64,000 nt of DNA. Source: Thermococcus nautili (GTDB taxonomy: Archaea > Methanobacteriota_B > Thermococci > Thermococcales > Thermococcaceae). This document shows, in pieces, positions 5,472 to 50,500 of the stretch. The DNA is taken from positions 992,001-1,056,000 of the forward strand of contig NZ_CP007264.1 of assembly GCF_000585495.1 (NCBI RefSeq). Direction: 5' to 3'. The translations under genes were made by a program, and so were the position numbers. The notes under the pieces were generated by a model that had not been told where the DNA came from, did not search any database, and saw only the letters and a list, made by a program, of their open reading frames with translations. Each line of letters starts with the position of its first letter. Positions within the stretch are counted from its first letter, which is position 1.

Positions 5472-6239
5472 TCACTGGAGCTCCATAACGGCCTCGGTGT
5501 AGGTGCTCGGGGTAGTGAACTCGATGACGCCCGGAGCGCCGAACTCCGGAACGACCTCACCGGTAATCTTGGTGCCCGGAGCGATTCCATAGACGTTGTT
5601 GGCAAGGTCGGCGAAGACACCAACAGCATCAGTTCCAGTTCCATATCCATCGTTACCAAGGTCCAGGGCACCAACGAGCACGGTGAGAACGACGAGGTCG
5701 CCCTGGTTGAGAGTCGGGTAGTCAGCGCTAAGGCTCTGGTCAGCGTCTTGGAGAACTATGATACCAAAGTTCTTAGCCGGGTCGTGCCCAGTAGCCCAAA
5801 GGTTGCTCCACGCAGCAAGGGTAGTGCCAAAGATATCATCAGTCACGCCGTTATAGAAGGCATCGTTTGCATCGTCTGGACCACCGGCGTACTGGAGAAC
5901 GGCCTCCTTGGTTCCGTCGCTCAGGATGACCTTGGTGTTACTGAGGTCAATGCCAGCGCTACCAGCGTTCGGAGAAACGTATATCGCGAGCTGCCTGATG
6001 TAGTCGAGCTCAGTGGTACCCGTAGTATATGGGTCGTCGGTCTTACCAACAACCCTCTCAACCTGCAAGCCACTGGCAACCTCCTGGGTGGTCTCCCTGC
6101 CGGTGCTGGAAGCCTTCTGCTGGAGGTAACCGCTCGTGTTAATCAGCACTGCCGCGGCAACTGCCGCCACTAAAACCATGGCTATGAACACAATCAGGGT
6201 ACCGATACCGACGGCACCTCTTCTGGTCCTGGCCTTCAT
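5472..6239 (-). CDS. arlB1: Archaellin ArlB1 (flagellin), first gene of the operon
   Basis: A 255-residue archaellum filament subunit and probably the major one, as it is promoter-proximal. The leader MKARTRRG is followed by [20 protein letters not shown], and processing should fall between G and A. The conserved N-terminal block [19 protein letters not shown] and C-terminus [19 protein letters not shown] match the other copies. The intergenic stretch after its stop (CGTTTCCTTTCCAAATTTT on the minus strand) is T-rich and recurs after arlB2, so partial termination may adjust the ratio of archaellins. Confidence 0.94.
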
Positions 6240-25113: not shown

Positions 25114-25160
25114 TTCTGGGGCCGGGGCCGGGATTTGAACCCGGGCTAGGGGATCCACAG
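25114..25160 (+). repeat. attL: 47-bp core copy (3' half of tRNA-His)
   Basis: These 47 bases are identical to 50394-50440. They cover the tRNA-His gene (minus strand) from the anticodon loop through the T arm, acceptor 3' strand and CCA, plus three further bases. Here the tRNA lacks its 5' half, and the sequence continues to the right into int(C). Confidence 0.93.
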
Positions 25161-29450: not shown

Positions 29451-29472
29451 GTGTAAGGTAATCACCTTACAC
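29451..29472. repeat. Element palindrome, copy 2
   Basis: GTGTAAGG-TAATCA-CCTTACAC, both arms perfect. It overlaps the stop codon of the zinc-finger gene and, unlike most copies, is not upstream of an obvious TATA box. Confidence 0.88.
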
Positions 29473-32489: not shown

Positions 32490-32951
32490 TCAGTCATCTC
32501 GAATCGGTGTGAGACTTCTCTCGCCATAATCCTTGAGGAATATCCCAGCCGCGTGAAGGAGCGCGTCAATGAACCATTCACTCGGTTCGACTTCAAAGTA
32601 TGCCATAATCGGTTTTCCGTTGAGTGCGCCCCTCAGAAGAACCCTGTCCTCAGAGAGTCTAATGAGAAACAAATCGACAATTGCACCTCTTCCGTGATTT
32701 CTTATGACCATCCCTCGGGAGATGGGCATAAAACCATTAATCCAGAAGGCGTTAATGTCTTCTCCGTTGTGAACCTTGAATATTTTCACTTTTTTGATAT
32801 TGATACTCACGTTGAGGTCTGGCGAGAAGTATCCATCCGCGATTGGGTCAATACCAATGTCTTTTGGCTGGGCCTCTTCGAGCTTGAGGCGTGGATTGTC
32901 CTTGATTAACCTGGCAATGATTTCGGCGGGCATTAAGTTTTCCCCATTCAT
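32490..32951 (-). CDS. Element protein of unknown function
   Basis: A 153-residue soluble protein (start MNGENLMPAEIIARLIKDNP). It has a helical N-terminus, a beta-rich centre (VSINIKKVKIFKVHNGEDIN, LFLIRLSEDRVLLRGALNG) and a C-terminal helix. No motif is recognised. GGGGTGGTG lies just before ATG 32951; GTG 32960 is also open. Palindrome copy 4 is beside its promoter, so it shares control with other element genes. Confidence 0.6.
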   Translation of the reverse strand: MNGENLMPAEIIARLIKDNPRLKLEEAQPKDIGIDPIADGYFSPDLNVSINIKKVKIFKVHNGEDINAFWINGFMPISRGMVIRNHGRGAIVDLFLIRLSEDRVLLRGALNGKPIMAYFEVEPSEWFIDALLHAAGIFLKDYGERSLTPIRDD

Positions 32952-33009
32952 CGACACCACCCCATTTGACCCTAAAGAAGACTGTAAACGGTCAAAGTTT
33001 AAAAAGACT

Positions 33010-33031
33010 GCGTCAGGCTTTTGCCTTACAC
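33010..33031. repeat. Element palindrome, copy 4 (degenerate left arm)
   Basis: GCGTCAGG-CTTTTG-CCTTACAC. The left arm has GTCAGG in place of GTAAGG, the same change seen in copies 5 and 6. It lies five bases upstream of the minus-strand TATA box TTTTTAAAC (32998-33005). Confidence 0.8.
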
Positions 33032-33327
33032 TGAATCAAAGCCGGAGAATTTAAATACACATAAAAACGCCGTTTTTATGTGCATGAAAATTATATAAAC
33101 CTGTTCCCTGTAAAGTTTTTTAAATTTTGTAAAAAATCCAAAGAGAACATCGCGTGTACTCTTTAGTGCAGTATATACCCAAGTTTGTACCTGTACCCTT
33201 GGATTTTTGAAAATCGAAAAAAATCGTTGAGGGAACCAGAGAACATTACGATGAACAATCGTATTGCATTGTGGGGCAAATTTGTGGATTTTGCTCGTGA
33301 AACTCCCCTCTTACCACTCCTTTGGTG

Positions 33328-33520
33328 TATATAAGGTGGACAGGGACCCCCCAGTTTTGCGAAAAATTCGAAGGGTACGGAGAACAGGGAACGAGAATTT
33401 GAATACATTTGTACAGCAAAACTTGTACACCCGTGCGTTACTCTGATGAGTGTTATGTTCCCTGTTCTCCGTACCCTAATATTTTTTCGCGTACTTTCGC
33501 TGACACCCCCCTGTATATAG
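33328..33520. promoter_or_regulatory. Convergent TATA boxes around a 34-nt inverted repeat
   Basis: A plus-strand TATATAAG (33328-33335) and a minus-strand CTATATAC (33513-33520) point at each other. Each lies about 44 bases outside the nearer arm of the inverted repeat at 33359-33490. Two short opposed transcripts would therefore each begin just outside an arm and be complementary. Confidence 0.5.
33359..33490. repeat. 34-nt inverted repeat in the origin region
   Basis: Left arm 33359-33392 and right arm 33457-33490. The inner 20 bases (GGGTACGGAGAACAGGGAAC, 33373-33392) are perfectly inverted at 33457-33476. The outer GCGAAAAA is also matched. The 64-base centre contains TTGTAC twice. Confidence 0.9.
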
Positions 33521-33598
33521 GCCCATTTTTGCAAAAATTCTGCATTTTTCACTCTCCCCTGCACCACCCGTGTATAACCCCACCAGTCGAGCAGTTCA

Positions 33599-33620
33599 GC
33601 GTAAGGCACTCACCTGACAC
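33599..33620. repeat. Element palindrome, copy 5
   Basis: GCGTAAGG-CACTCA-CCTGACAC, one change in each arm. First of three copies in the 90 bases ahead of the MCM promoter. Confidence 0.82.
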
Positions 33621-33625
33621 CGCCG

Positions 33626-33647
33626 GTGTAAGGCAAAAACCTGACAC
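33626..33647. repeat. Element palindrome, copy 6
   Basis: GTGTAAGG-CAAAAA-CCTGACAC; the right arm has GAC in place of TAC. It starts 27 bases after copy 5. Confidence 0.85.
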
Positions 33648-33663
33648 TAACCACGGGACATCA

Positions 33664-33685
33664 GTGTAAGGCACTTGCCTTACAC
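33664..33685. repeat. Element palindrome, copy 7
   Basis: GTGTAAGG-CACTTG-CCTTACAC, both arms perfect. It ends 15 bases before the TATA-like TTTTAAT (33700) of the MCM gene. Confidence 0.9.
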
Positions 33686-33742
33686 CAGCGACCAGCTTGT
33701 TTTAATTGCTCATACCTAACTCCCTCTTTTCGGGTGAAGGGC

Positions 33743-36538
33743 ATGGCTGTGGGAGCTGAGAATATTAACATTAAGGACGTCCTTTCAAGGGCTGAAGAGC
33801 TGGACCTGAGTGTTGAGGACCTCTTCAGGAGTCACGAAGAAATCAAAAAGGAGATTGATAAGAAAGGTGCTTTGAACATTGGGAGCTTTGATTTCCTTGC
33901 CCGGAAGGCCATAAAGGCGGTTTTTGGTGAGGAGATTGGGGTCATAACCCAGGAGCACCTTGAGGTTTTTGCAAAAATTTTGCACCAAATTAAGAGCGAG
34001 ATATTAGATAACGATTCGAGGAAAAAATTTTTTCCTCCTTTTCCTGAAGGGGAAAAAGGCAAAAAAGACACAGAATCTTTTCCTTTCCAAAAGGAAATGG
34101 AGGAAAAAGATAATATCCAAAAGGAAAAGCAGGAAAATCTTAGAGATACTATTGAACTTCAGCTTCAGGCAATCAAGAGGACAGTTGAGTTGAACAAGCA
34201 ACATGATTCTCTTGTGATATTAGCCTTATGTCATGAGCGAGATTATGTTGCATATTCTGACCTGATTGACAAGGTTACTCAAATCAACAAGGTTCTCGGA
34301 AAGAGGTATGCAAACTCTTCCCTAAGACAGGCCGTCTCAAGAGTCGGGAATGATACCAATATTGTGGAGAAAAAGGTCTCACGAGACGTGAGATACTTTC
34401 GCCTGCTCCCTGAAGTCAGAGACGAAATATGTGAAACCTTCACAAAACTTCTGGAACACGAACAAGCGAAGAAAGGTCTCAAATCCCTTGATGGAGGAGA
34501 CCGGAAAGCAATGATTGAGGCATTTAAAACGTTCATTCTCAGTTACACTGAGGGGAACGGAGAAAAGATTTATCGAGAAAAACTCGCCAGTCTGCTGACA
34601 GAGGAAAGCAAGAAAAGCCTTGAGATTGACTTTGTCCATCTCAGCTCAGTTCTTGAACGTATCCCCAAGAAGCTCTTAGAAGAACCCGAAGAAGTCATCT
34701 CGGCTGCTGAAGACGCTGTTGAACTTATACTGAAAGAAGAATTCTTCAAGGATAATCCACCCCACATTCACGTCCGGTTTTACAACCTCCCCAAAACGCT
34801 TGAACCACGCTTTGTGAGCCCAGAACACATCAACCGCTTCATTCAAGTAAGGGGAGTCGTCACGAGGCTCTCAAGCATTGAGCCTTTCATATCCGAAGCT
34901 GTTTTCGTATGCAGAGACTGTGGAAATGAGATGCCCAGAATACAGAGAGAGTACTCACTAAAGCTCGAAAGACCAGTTAAGTGTAACGCCTGTGGCTCCA
35001 AGAGCATCGAGCTCAATCCAGAAAAGAGCACTTTCCGGAAGTATCAATCCGCAACAATCCAGGACCTTCCGGAGAGGCTCAAGGGTGGGCAGTTACCCAG
35101 ACAACTTAACGTTATTCTCCTCGATGACCTCTGCGACACCATAACCCCCGGCGACAGGGTCATCATGAGTGGGACCCTCCGACTTATCGAAGGTGAAGAG
35201 GAAAACAAGCCCGTTCGAAAAGTTGTATTAATCGTGAACCACGTCGAGAAAGAGAGTAAGGACGAGGAGGACATCAAGATAACGCCGGAGGAGGAGCGGA
35301 GAATCCTTGAGGAAGTGAAGTCACCAGATTACAAGAAAAAGCTAATTCAGTCGTTTGCCCCCACAGTTCACGGTTACGAGAACGAGAAGCTGGGCATACT
35401 GCTCTCCCTCTTCGGAGGCCATGACGAGTATTCGCCAGCCGGAGAAAGAAAGAGGAAGCGGATTCACGTCCTCCTCATCGGAGACCCTGGAACGGCGAAG
35501 TCTCACCTGCTCGACTTCACGGCCAGGATTGCACCGAGAGCCGTTAGGGCTTCAGGAAAAGGAGCGAGCGGGGTGGGTCTTATGGCCGCCGCCAAAAAGG
35601 ACAACATCACCGGGCGTTGGACAGTTGATGCCGGAACCCTCGTGTTAGCAGACAACGGCTTCGCGATTATTGACGAACTGGACAAGATGAGCAAAGAAGA
35701 CAGGAACAGCCTTCACGAACCGATGGAACAGGGCAGTGTTTACTTCGCCAAGGCCGGCCTCAACATGGTTCTTAACGCAAGGGCAACCGTCATCGCCGCG
35801 GCAAATCCGAAGTTCGGCAAGATTAACAGAAACAAAACGATTCCCGAGCAGATTGACCTTCCGCCTTCACTGATGAGCAGGTTTGACTTGATATTCACCT
35901 TCATAAACACGGTTGATGAGGAGAAGGATCAGCTGGTGGCTGAAGCGATTCTGAAGAGGTGGTATGAGGGTGAGCGTGTTAGACCTCCGTACTCGCCGGA
36001 GTTCATGAGGAAGCTGATTGTTTACGCTCGGAAGAAGATTAAGGCGACGAGGCTCGACCCCCAGCTGAAGGAGGAAATCCAAAAATATTATGCAGAGCTG
36101 AGGAAGAGGCTGAAGAACAAGGAGGGCTTTTCGATAACTCCGAGACAGCTTGAAGCCATCCTGAGACTTGCGGAAGCTCACGCGAGAATGCACCTTAGAG
36201 ATACAGTAACTAAGGAGGACTTTGATGTTGCAGTGAATCTGCTTGAGTATTCTCTTCAAAAAGCAGCGATTGATGAAGAAGGAGACATTGACGTTTCGAT
36301 ACTTGAGATTGGACAGTCATCAAAACGACGGAATTTGAAGCAAAGGGTTCTTGAGGTCATCGAGAAGCTTCAGGACTCCGGTGAGTGGGGAGCTTCGAGG
36401 GAGGACATCATTGAGGAAGTTCAACAGTTCGGCTTCAAGCGCGTTGAGGTTGAGAAGGCACTCAGGGAACTCATGGAGTCAGGAGAGGTTTACCAACCAA
36501 AGGGTGGGTATTACAAGATAAATCCTGAGGAAAACTAA
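33743..36538 (+). CDS. mcm: MCM-family replicative helicase with long N-terminal extension
   Basis: The product has 931 residues, against roughly 680 for typical archaeal MCM. Residues 1-250 are an added helical, charged region with no recognised motif. The MCM core follows: an OB/zinc domain with CRDCGNEMP…CNACGSKS (about residues 390-415), Walker A GDPGTAKSHLL (about 580), Walker B with IIDELDKMS (about 642), the arginine finger LMSRFDLIF (about 710), and a C-terminal winged helix. It should unwind the element's origin. ATG 33743 is favoured by GGGTGA; GTG 33734 is an alternative. Thermococcales elements often bring their own MCM copy. Confidence 0.93.
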   Translation: MAVGAENINIKDVLSRAEELDLSVEDLFRSHEEIKKEIDKKGALNIGSFDFLARKAIKAVFGEEIGVITQEHLEVFAKILHQIKSEILDNDSRKKFFPPFPEGEKGKKDTESFPFQKEMEEKDNIQKEKQENLRDTIELQLQAIKRTVELNKQHDSLVILALCHERDYVAYSDLIDKVTQINKVLGKRYANSSLRQAVSRVGNDTNIVEKKVSRDVRYFRLLPEVRDEICETFTKLLEHEQAKKGLKSLDGGDRKAMIEAFKTFILSYTEGNGEKIYREKLASLLTEESKKSLEIDFVHLSSVLERIPKKLLEEPEEVISAAEDAVELILKEEFFKDNPPHIHVRFYNLPKTLEPRFVSPEHINRFIQVRGVVTRLSSIEPFISEAVFVCRDCGNEMPRIQREYSLKLERPVKCNACGSKSIELNPEKSTFRKYQSATIQDLPERLKGGQLPRQLNVILLDDLCDTITPGDRVIMSGTLRLIEGEEENKPVRKVVLIVNHVEKESKDEEDIKITPEEERRILEEVKSPDYKKKLIQSFAPTVHGYENEKLGILLSLFGGHDEYSPAGERKRKRIHVLLIGDPGTAKSHLLDFTARIAPRAVRASGKGASGVGLMAAAKKDNITGRWTVDAGTLVLADNGFAIIDELDKMSKEDRNSLHEPMEQGSVYFAKAGLNMVLNARATVIAAANPKFGKINRNKTIPEQIDLPPSLMSRFDLIFTFINTVDEEKDQLVAEAILKRWYEGERVRPPYSPEFMRKLIVYARKKIKATRLDPQLKEEIQKYYAELRKRLKNKEGFSITPRQLEAILRLAEAHARMHLRDTVTKEDFDVAVNLLEYSLQKAAIDEEGDIDVSILEIGQSSKRRNLKQRVLEVIEKLQDSGEWGASREDIIEEVQQFGFKRVEVEKALRELMESGEVYQPKGGYYKINPEEN

Positions 36539-36663
36539 GTCAGTTTTTAGTTCATATATCTGAATTTCTTCCCAAAACCTTTTCTTATTTTGAAGATTTA
36601 TCAAGTTGGGTTGAGTTATGCATAAATATGAGTTACTAATGTGAACAGTTGGGTGGATCAATT

Positions 36664-37470
36664 ATGGATATAGGGTATGTAGATATTACGAGAGGGTATG
36701 GATTCGACGCTAAGGAGGCCCAGCAGGTTAGAATTGCCTGGGAAATCGCGAACGAACTGATCGACATTGTTCCGGAGCCCAAGGTATGGGTCGAGCTCCA
36801 TAACGAAATCCTGAAGAATTTCATTGAAACATCAGAGCTGTATTCCCTAAAAACATACCTCGACTTTATCCACGACTTCTTCGCTGAGAAAATCGACGAG
36901 GAAACGGCCGAGGAAGTAATTGAAGTGTTCAAGAAGCACTCGGAGGCATTGTTCTTCAAGCTCAACGAGGAATTCGTGGCCCCCTCCTTATTGATGGCCC
37001 AAGTGTTCGGGTTCATAGAGCACGGGGAAAAGTTCTTGGAAATTCTTATGGCAATTGGAATTCCTCAAGTCAAGAGATACGAAAGCACCGCCGAAATGCT
37101 TAGAGATGTTCCGCCAAAGATGAGAGGCGCGATAATCGCAGGAATCCTCCTTAACAGAGTTCCCGATGTTGAATCATGGGTTTATGCAATCAGCAAAATT
37201 CAAGATGAAATTCAGGCCAGGGGAGGCATTATATCCAAAAACAAGGCTGGAAAAATCATAAGGAATGCGTTTGAAGAACTTGGAAACAAGGAAGGCGCGG
37301 TGCAGGCCCGCAAGGTATTCATCGAGTACATTGGGGAGATTCTAGAAGAGGTGCAACCGGAGATTTATGCGGCAACACCCGTGCTCCTCGACGTCAACAC
37401 GGCGCTCACCGTGATACTCTCAGACAAGCATCCGGACGTACTTTCCCATCTCGTTGGTCTCCGCTTCTGA
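36664..37470 (+). CDS. Helical element protein of unknown function
   Basis: A 268-residue, mostly helical soluble protein (MDIGYVDITRGYGFDAKEAQ at the start). It lacks membrane segments and recognised motifs. The end, LLDVNTALTVILSDKHPDVLSHL, is conserved-looking but not familiar. GGGTGGATC precedes ATG 36664. It stands alone between mcm and the restriction genes, and could belong to replication or be an accessory of the cargo. Codon use changes toward the host's GC-rich pattern within this gene. Confidence 0.6.
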   Translation: MDIGYVDITRGYGFDAKEAQQVRIAWEIANELIDIVPEPKVWVELHNEILKNFIETSELYSLKTYLDFIHDFFAEKIDEETAEEVIEVFKKHSEALFFKLNEEFVAPSLLMAQVFGFIEHGEKFLEILMAIGIPQVKRYESTAEMLRDVPPKMRGAIIAGILLNRVPDVESWVYAISKIQDEIQARGGIISKNKAGKIIRNAFEELGNKEGAVQARKVFIEYIGEILEEVQPEIYAATPVLLDVNTALTVILSDKHPDVLSHLVGLRF

Positions 37471-37513
37471 CCCTGCACCTTTTCCTTTTGCTATGACTCT
37501 CACACCCAGATGT

Positions 37514-49224: not shown

Positions 49225-49246
49225 GTGTAAGGCAAACACCTTACAC
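49225..49246. repeat. Element palindrome, copy 8
   Basis: GTGTAAGG-CAAACA-CCTTACAC, both arms perfect. It stands about 65 bases upstream of the vapB TATA box, farther from a promoter than the other copies. Confidence 0.9.
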
Positions 49247-49712
49247 CAGCACTCCAAGAGTACATCTCTGTACACTCATTTAACAAAGAGGCCTTCTGAG
49301 GACCCGTTTAATCCATTGTCGCGTTACAAACTGCCTGGTGTGGTCGCCCAAGAGTTATGGGAAAGCTCATTATCGCGCCCTTCAGGAGACTTTTTGTTTT
49401 TACATTGTTTTTCGGCCAATTCAAGCCCTCTCGTGCCTTCTTTTTGGAGTATGGTTTTGTGAATGTACAAGTTTATGCGTTGCCTTTTTTGCAACTCGCG
49501 CTTAAATGCAAAAATTAATGAAAACAGCTCTCGAAAAGAAGCTTTCTCCTGCCCCCCTTGTCTTCCACGAGTTTCCAAAAATGAAACTCGGAGGCGTTCG
49601 AGTTATCAAATCTGCTAACTCGTGCGAAATTTGGGTTTCTTAGTGACTCTGTGTGGTGATAAGGAGTTATGTTTAATTGCTCGTCCTGTGCGTGGGGCGT
49701 TGGTGGTCAGTG
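49247..49712. other. Gap of about 470 bp without a convincing gene
   Basis: Frames at 49211-49462 and 49324-49578 lack ribosome sites and protein-like composition. The interval contains CGTGCGAAATTTG (near 49623), which recurs before int(N) near 50159, and GGTGGTC just ahead of the next gene. Confidence 0.5.
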
Positions 49713-50102
49713 ATGGAAGCTGTTGAAGTTGTATTAGCTGAAGTCTTTAGAAAGATTCAGGAACTGAACCTCGAAGAAGTCGATGGAAAGATTGTTGGGG
49801 CATTGGTTGAGCGTTTGGAAGACCTTGGCGCGCCGAGTGAGTTCTGGCAGGAGGTTTACTCTTTCATGCAAGGCGGTTATGATGGGCGTAAGTCCCTCAT
49901 TGATGCACTGGACCTTTTCAAGTACCTCCTCGATGATTTTGTGAAGCAGGGGCTAATTGATGCGGAGACTGTTCTTAATTTGAGGATGTTCGTTGAGCGA
50001 TTCAAGGACACATTGTTCCCGAGGAGTGAGAACTGTGTGAGGATGCCATCGGTGACTGCCTTGGAAACGTTTTTCGTCCTCGCTTATGGGAATGTTGAAT
50101 GA
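49713..50102 (+). CDS. Small helical element protein
   Basis: A 129-residue, mostly helical acidic protein (MEAVEVVLAEVFRKIQELNL at the start, ALETFFVLAYGNVE at the end). ATG 49713 is picked because GGTGGTCAGTG precedes it; the longer frame begins without a ribosome site. It is next to int(N), where excision or replication helpers often sit. No family is recognised. Confidence 0.6.
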   Translation: MEAVEVVLAEVFRKIQELNLEEVDGKIVGALVERLEDLGAPSEFWQEVYSFMQGGYDGRKSLIDALDLFKYLLDDFVKQGLIDAETVLNLRMFVERFKDTLFPRSENCVRMPSVTALETFFVLAYGNVE

Positions 50103-50209: not shown

Positions 50210-50440
50210 ATGGGACTTGACACGGGTAATTACACGTGTATTTACACGGGTGATGTACAGAACCGTTCAAAGAAGCGGAATGTTACCGTGACAATCCGGG
50301 CTGATCTGGTGGAGTTTGCGAAGAGAGAAGGCATTAATATGTCGAAGTTGCTTGAAGAAGCTTTGAAAGCGTTTTATTCTGGAAAAGCGGTTCTTCTGGG
50401 GCCGGGGCCGGGATTTGAACCCGGGCTAGGGGATCCACAG
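50210..50440 (+). CDS. int(N): N-terminal part of split SSV-type integrase
   Basis: 77 codons from ATG 50210 (GGTG upstream) to the end of the att core. Residues 20-57 look like a ribbon-helix-helix unit (KRNVTVTIRADLVEFAKREG, NMSKLLEEALKAF). The last codons, VLLGPGPGFEPGLGDPQ, are encoded by the antisense strand of the tRNA-His 3' half. In the integrated state the frame runs on by chance to 50500 through the rest of the tRNA. Fused to int(C) at the other end it gives a 407-residue recombinase. Confidence 0.92.
50394..50440 (+). repeat. attR: 47-bp core copy within intact tRNA-His
   Basis: Identical to 25114-25160. At this end the core completes a full tRNA gene, so the host tRNA stays functional after integration with its 3' half supplied by the element. 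Confidence 0.94.
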
Positions 50441-50474
50441 TCCCCTGTGCTGACCAGGCTACACCACCCCGGCC
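50397..50474 (-). tRNA. tRNA-His (GTG)
   Basis: On the minus strand the acceptor strand GCCGGGG (50467-50473) pairs with CCCCGGC, with an encoded G at position -1 facing C73, the identity mark of tRNA-His. The anticodon loop is CTGTGGA with anticodon GTG (50436-50438). The T arm reads CCGGG-TTCAAAT-CCCGG, and CCA is encoded (50397-50399). It is the integration site of the element. Confidence 0.95.
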
Positions 50475-50500
50475 ACGTCCAGCTTAAGCTTTTGGGTTAG

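Follow-up and report, generated by a model that had tools for sequence, protein, structure and literature searches.

The DNA analysed here (the window) is a 64,000-nt stretch of the genome of Thermococcus nautili 30-1 (G000:C1:992001-1056000; genome 1,976,356 bp, single contig). It contains a 25.3-kb integrated plasmid-like element (25114-50440) in a tRNA-His gene, which, besides mcm, carries genes for tyrosine recombinases, a type I restriction system and an EVE-domain protein; positions 25.2-29.0 kb hold three integrase-like genes. Elements in two other genomes, G027 and G087, have the same tRNA-His att sequence at their boundaries. The subject of this study, a 130-base inverted repeat with a TATATA box outside each arm, sits within the element and is flanked by genes that both point away from it, a minus-strand gene at 32490-32960 on one side and mcm on the other.

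25114-25160: attL, 47-bp perfect direct repeat with 50394-50440
50394-50440: attR, inside tRNA-His (50397-50473)
33734/33743-36538, plus strand: mcm (MCM helicase), with an N-terminal extension of about 250 amino acids

Anatomy and conservation of the inverted-repeat unit

A reading made previously from the sequence alone (the sequence-only reading) had placed 34-nt repeat arms at 33359-33392 and 33457-33490, in a non-coding, AT-rich stretch ahead of the replicative helicase gene. The arms were recovered at these coordinates (34 nt, 88% complementary, 64 nt between them), and mcm indeed follows at 33734/33743. The stretch is also non-coding, as the sole long overlapping ORF (33163-33609, minus strand) is interrupted by stops in G027, and a protein-coding reading was rejected on this ground. 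The perfect inner part of the arms exists but measures 21 bp (33372-33392 and 33457-33477) instead of the 20 bp originally given. AT-richness holds mainly for 33000-33250 (GC 0.25-0.39), the hairpin itself having 41-43% GC. No other perfect 20-bp inverted repeat with a spacer of 20-150 occurs in the 64-kb window, and the chance expectation is about 8e-6.

33328-33333, plus strand: left TATATA box, centre 28.5 nt outside the left arm; conserved in G027
33359-33392, plus strand: left arm; outer 8 bp GCGAAAAA; heptads GGGTACg, GAGAACa and GGGAAC at 33373, 33380 and 33387; 33/34 identical in G027
33393-33456: centre between the arms, 64 nt, two TTGTACA motifs; 54/64 identical in G027, gapless
33457-33490, minus strand: right arm; the same three heptads on the minus strand (33457, 33464, 33471); outer GCGAAAAA; 34/34 identical in G027
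33514-33519, minus strand: right TATATA box, centre 26.5 nt outside the right arm; conserved in G027
33035-33260: AT-rich part of the non-coding region, possibly an unwinding element

A plus-strand C6 run stands beside each TATA box (33347-33352 and 33506-33511); both runs are kept in G027, and their orientation is direct, not mirror.

Among the 93 other Thermococcales genomes, G027 alone has a homologue of the unit, which keeps both boxes, both arms and all spacings. No further copy was found in the remaining 92 genomes or in annotated plasmids or phages, and the T. nautili genome holds no second copy. A match in IMG/VR (L158) was rejected, as it lies inside an ORF on a contig without a match to any element protein. 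The alignment with G027 is gapless over the whole unit, with identities on the left side of 10/11 for the TATA box, 8/22 for the spacer and 33/34 for the arm, and on the right side of 34/34 for the arm, 18/22 for the spacer and 8/10 for the TATA box. Since the left spacer has been replaced at an unchanged length of 22 nt between conserved parts, box and arm appear to work together at a fixed distance. The presence of the unit in only two elements could be taken to mean a relic or a chance symmetry without function, but we find this scarcely credible given that the arms are 97-100% conserved, against 79-84% for the neighbouring upstream non-coding DNA, in a unit without indels.

The length of the inverted repeat, the hairpin origins of archaeal rolling-circle elements (PMC13107129) and the three integrase-like genes of the element would also fit a DNA hairpin or recombination site, that is, a rolling-circle nick site, a single-strand origin or an inversion/resolution site for one of the element's integrases. 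We consider this very improbable: no rolling-circle Rep domain was detected among the element proteins scanned (several of them without any match), the att sites lie elsewhere, the 64-nt centre is oriented in G027 as it is here, and the genome has no second copy.

The borders of the region carry a 22-bp palindrome, GTGTAAGGyAnnnnCCTTACAC, which is limited to 5 of the 94 Thermococcales genomes (copies also in G026, G027, G030 and G087) and adjoins several promoters of this element family. In the window it occurs at 29451, 32373, 33010, 33626, 33664, 49225 and 50128. One copy lies upstream of a ribbon-helix-helix (CcdA-like) gene at 50213-50500, and the palindrome is possibly the operator of that gene.

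33010-33031: element-specific palindrome (GTGTAAGGCA-type), left border of the swapped module described below
33626-33685: two copies of the same GTGTAAGGCA-type palindrome, directly upstream of the mcm start

TATATA boxes and possible transcripts

Two strong TATA boxes, each about 44 bases outside an arm and pointing inward, had been proposed to drive two short complementary RNAs. The boxes are in fact 24-26 nt from the arms (28.5 and 26.5 nt from their centres), a distance of 44 fitting the perfect inner part only. Nor did they prove strong: scored against a BRE+TATA matrix derived from 25 tRNA promoters of T. nautili, the left box reaches -5.7 bits, and the right interval gives nothing above -0.1 bits. 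The A-rich BRE that typically precedes the TATA box here, as judged from the same tRNA-promoter matrix, is absent at both boxes in T. nautili; the sequence in front of the right box of G027 is AAAAAATGGC, a partial match to an A-rich BRE. On the same scale the best match of the stretch, located elsewhere, reaches +8.7, and the promoter of the minus-strand gene at 32998 reaches +8.4. The box itself lends no support to the inward direction, since TATATA is its own reverse complement, and only the spacing and the T-runs at the far arms favour inward transcription. The two boxes do stand out by density, with 4 of the 11 TATATA sequences of the 64 kb in this non-coding stretch, and by their conservation in G027.

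33084-33099, plus strand, rightward: best BRE+TATA match of the stretch (ATGAAAATTATATAAA), +8.7; conserved in G027
33482-33487, plus strand: T6 run at the far arm, identical in G027; putative end of a rightward RNA
33362-33366, minus strand: T5 run at the far arm, identical in G027; putative end of a leftward RNA

The distance from an archaeal TATA box to the transcription start is usually about 27 nt (PMC5316973). The box centres are 26.5-28.5 nt from the outer arm edges, so the starts predicted about 27 nt from them fall at the outer arm ends (33357.5 and 33489.5). Facing promoters at these positions would produce two fully complementary, self-folding RNAs of about 130 nt, each extending from an arm start to the T-run of the far arm, which would set mcm expression or copy number. 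The geometry would allow two such short complementary RNAs, and antisense copy control is one of at least two live readings of the unit, although we regard it as rather unlikely. Besides the spacing, the T-runs and the exactly kept length of the replaced left spacer, it could draw on the folding of both strands, which is far better than that of shuffled sequences (z about -9.5; an 8-bp outer and a 21-22-bp inner stem). However, any DNA inverted repeat folds as RNA, and the fold is therefore not independent evidence. The single arm change in G027 leaves a G-U pair in the leftward RNA but an A-C mismatch in the rightward RNA and is therefore not decisive. The poor promoter scores, the missing BRE and the undefined direction of TATATA also argue against antisense control. 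Moreover, neither RNA would be complementary to the coding part of mcm, which would be affected only if rightward transcription from 33358 passed the T6 run. A scan against Rfam returned plant microRNA models only, all below the cut-off, because the stem is long.

Face-to-face promoters are known to block each other in some temperate phages. A comparable switch at this locus would involve long transcripts that overlap, one running rightward into mcm and the other leftward into the 32490-32960 gene, with a repressor bound to the heptad repeats of the arms (see below) as the switch. In its favour, the flanking genes point away from the unit, and the heptads, at about +13 to +34 of each predicted start, offer a place for a repressor or roadblock. 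We nevertheless consider the switch improbable: the minus-strand gene has a strong promoter of its own, kept in G030 and G087 without the unit, and T-runs on both paths (33218-33224 and 33482-33487) would stop long transcripts.

Heptad arrays and exchange of the replication module

Each arm consists of three tandem heptads, GGGTACg GAGAACa GGGAACg. This triple heptad has four occurrences in the 94 Thermococcales genomes, all of them the arms described here, and the reversed control pattern has none. The hexamer GRGWAC reaches 12 copies within 33101-33500, while 400 bp contain 1.2 on average, and the next-best place outside the stretch has 6. The 6 copies observed outside the arms exceed an expectation of 1.7 (P=0.009). 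When one arm was excluded, 2 of 300 shuffles matched the best degenerate hexamer family, which had 9 copies. As GRGWAC was defined after the arms had been seen, these statistics are moderate evidence.

33101-33245: six further GRGWAC sites (33103-, 33143+, 33156-, 33193-, 33231+, 33239+), 5/6 kept in G027

Judged by their sequence, the arms equally resemble protein-binding repeats. Three plus three heptads and six further GRGWAC sites give several short direct repeats beside a Rep gene, a feature of iteron origins, and the whole reads as an iteron-like layout. The consensus of archaeal origin recognition boxes (ORB) was taken to be of the TTCCA-n-TGGAA type, and no ORB or mini-ORB match of this type was found in 33032-33733.

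At its opposite end the element has a further non-coding stretch (49246-49715; counterpart in L086 at 5485-5960) with GAGTT-type repeats. In G027 this stretch contains a 20-nt inverted repeat with a 71-nt spacer, and it has the 10-mer AAACTTGTAC in common with the centre of the inverted-repeat unit.

The connection with replication made by the sequence-only reading is well supported, as sister elements gain or lose the unit jointly with mcm. It is present with mcm in T. nautili and in G027, which keeps the non-coding stretch and mcm together, and absent in G087 and G030. In the latter two, the minus-strand gene is retained at 84% and 52% identity, as are the palindrome at its promoter and the restriction genes, while a different non-coding stretch and an ORF of about 1,130-1,180 amino acids replace exactly 33032-33733 plus mcm (33732-37500 compared with G087:C1:1492300-1497200 and G030:C1:355400-360300). 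We call this ORF a primase-helicase from a reading of its sequence, not from a family match. The joint and exact replacement indicates that the unit belongs to the MCM replication module. The non-coding stretches of G087 and G030 have 0 and 2 copies of GRGWAC, without a cluster, and share a repeated hexamer of their own, ATTCCC (7 copies; 0/200 shuffles in both). Thus, each replication protein comes with its own repeat-bearing non-coding DNA. Among the proteins shared with G027 and missing from G087 and G030, MCM is the sole one with a known DNA-acting domain (Pfam).

The GC-skew and AT-skew minima of the element, at 33731 and 33575, agree with an origin here; in G027 the minimum of the GC skew lies away from the module. 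Because gene direction confounds it, skew was rejected as proof of an origin.

MCM extension, in-gene arrays and comparison with known systems

The N-terminal extension of the element MCM contains a predicted winged helix at residues 155-221, counted from the ATG at 33743. A fold search against the PDB returned generic winged-helix matches, none below E 0.001 and with Cdc6/Orc1 (2qby) in third place, so that support is limited to the fold class. In a 2026 preprint, N-terminal extensions of Thermococcales mobile MCMs were independently proposed to recognise origins, and its passages on this point name no recognition sequence (PMC12934983).

The mcm gene also has a repeat array of its own in the region coding for the linker. 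Element-specific arrays in the 5' part of mcm were significant in 12 of 14 mobile-element genes (at most 3 of 200 synonymous-codon shuffles) and in none of six cellular mcm genes. Five mobile mcm genes of other genera, fetched afterwards, were all significant (at most 2 of 300 shuffles), one of them being a near-copy of L102. These arrays exceed what protein sequence and codon use explain, and they are candidate MCM recognition sites or origins. In the related mcm genes of TKV1, G043, G037 and G010 the order and spacing of the copies are common to all four while the repeat itself differs (TTGGGGAC, TTGGATAC, TTGGGAAC and TGGGACA). In pTN3-like elements a second repeat set is found in the gene upstream of mcm. 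In L096-L099 the upstream gene has GGGAACA, CGAACA or CGATCA and mcm has TTTGAAC or GGGAACA, a pattern that would suit two proteins with separate sites. At the other mobile mcm genes examined, no comparable inverted repeat with two boxes was found, the upstream DNA of L028 and L095 being too short to tell.

34018-34137, plus strand: AGGAAA/TTTCCT array in the mcm linker, 8 copies; reached by 0/200 synonymous-codon shuffles
Other mobile mcm genes with 5' arrays: L089, L088, L100, L101, L102, L096-L099, L173, L180, L175, L181, L183

Our preferred reading of these observations is that the inverted-repeat unit forms the centrepiece of the cis-acting replication region of the element, combining an origin with initiator-binding control. 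The arms would be two inverted arrays of three GRGWACn heptad sites, and the AT-rich upstream DNA would hold six more. A DNA-binding initiator encoded by the element, in all likelihood the winged-helix extension of its own MCM, would bind the heptads, and this binding would load the helicase nearby and/or shut the promoters beside the arms. Autorepression of this kind is proposed because the first heptad lies about 14 nt past the predicted start on either side. We give about an even chance to 33032-33733 being a cis-acting origin or initiator-control region whose arms are binding arrays for the MCM extension. The unit more probably belongs to a region that starts or controls replication than it represents two established antisense-RNA genes. 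Against an origin stands its presence in two elements only; also, as mcm holds the AGGAAA array, the initiator might read that array and leave GRGWAC to something else.

A broader model, to which we give somewhat less than an even chance, is that mobile-element MCMs are combined initiator-helicases reading element-specific iterons, mostly inside mcm. The present lineage would have gained a second, non-coding array, in which two triple heptads make up an inverted repeat flanked by TATA boxes; it would tie loading of the helicase to the shutting of promoters or to transcription across the origin. To our knowledge, neither Orc1/Cdc6 nor ORB is known from the MCM-bearing plasmids and viruses of hyperthermophilic archaea. 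The locus and the arrays in other mobile mcm genes provide concrete short DNA candidates for origin recognition by MCM extensions, and should the RNAs exist too, the locus would add a rare archaeal example of replication controlled by RNA.

Iteron-type theta origins combine short tandem repeats and AT-rich DNA beside the gene of a replication protein, with an inverted copy of the repeat near promoters. The region in front of mcm has the same components, and its repeats move together with the Rep gene. It differs from the bacterial iteron plasmids with theta origins in that the putative initiator is a winged-helix MCM helicase instead of RepA or TrfA, and in having heptads where those plasmids have iterons of about 20 bp. 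Our literature search found no paper combining iterons with Thermococcales MCM elements.

A similar arrangement is known from Thermococcales plasmids. In the pT26-2 plasmid family of Thermococcales a repeat-rich non-coding stretch lies beside an MCM or other Rep gene, the replication module is often replaced, and predicted origins adjoin the Rep gene in 12 of 15 related plasmids (PMC6972569). Unlike the present region, these predicted origins are described without a consensus or an inverted-repeat unit with flanking TATA boxes, and no sequence is shared with them. For pAMT11, a 2026 paper states that the origin region may lie upstream of the rep gene (PMC13107129). By its N-terminal extension, the element MCM falls in the class of Thermococcales viral and plasmid MCMs with an N-terminal winged helix (pTN3, TKV1, TKV4) described in PMC12934983; candidate sites are described here, whereas the preprint passages name none.

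Previously, antisense transcripts have been found to be common in T. kodakarensis, their function being undemonstrated there (PMC4247193), and Sulfolobus provided the first reported example of antisense regulation in hyperthermophilic archaea (PMC3674436). In plasmid copy control of the ColE1, R1, pT181 and pMV158 type, antisense RNA acts beside a replication gene, and at this locus, too, two complementary RNAs could arise in that position. Unlike in those systems, the RNAs would be self-complementary hairpins transcribed from mirror promoters.
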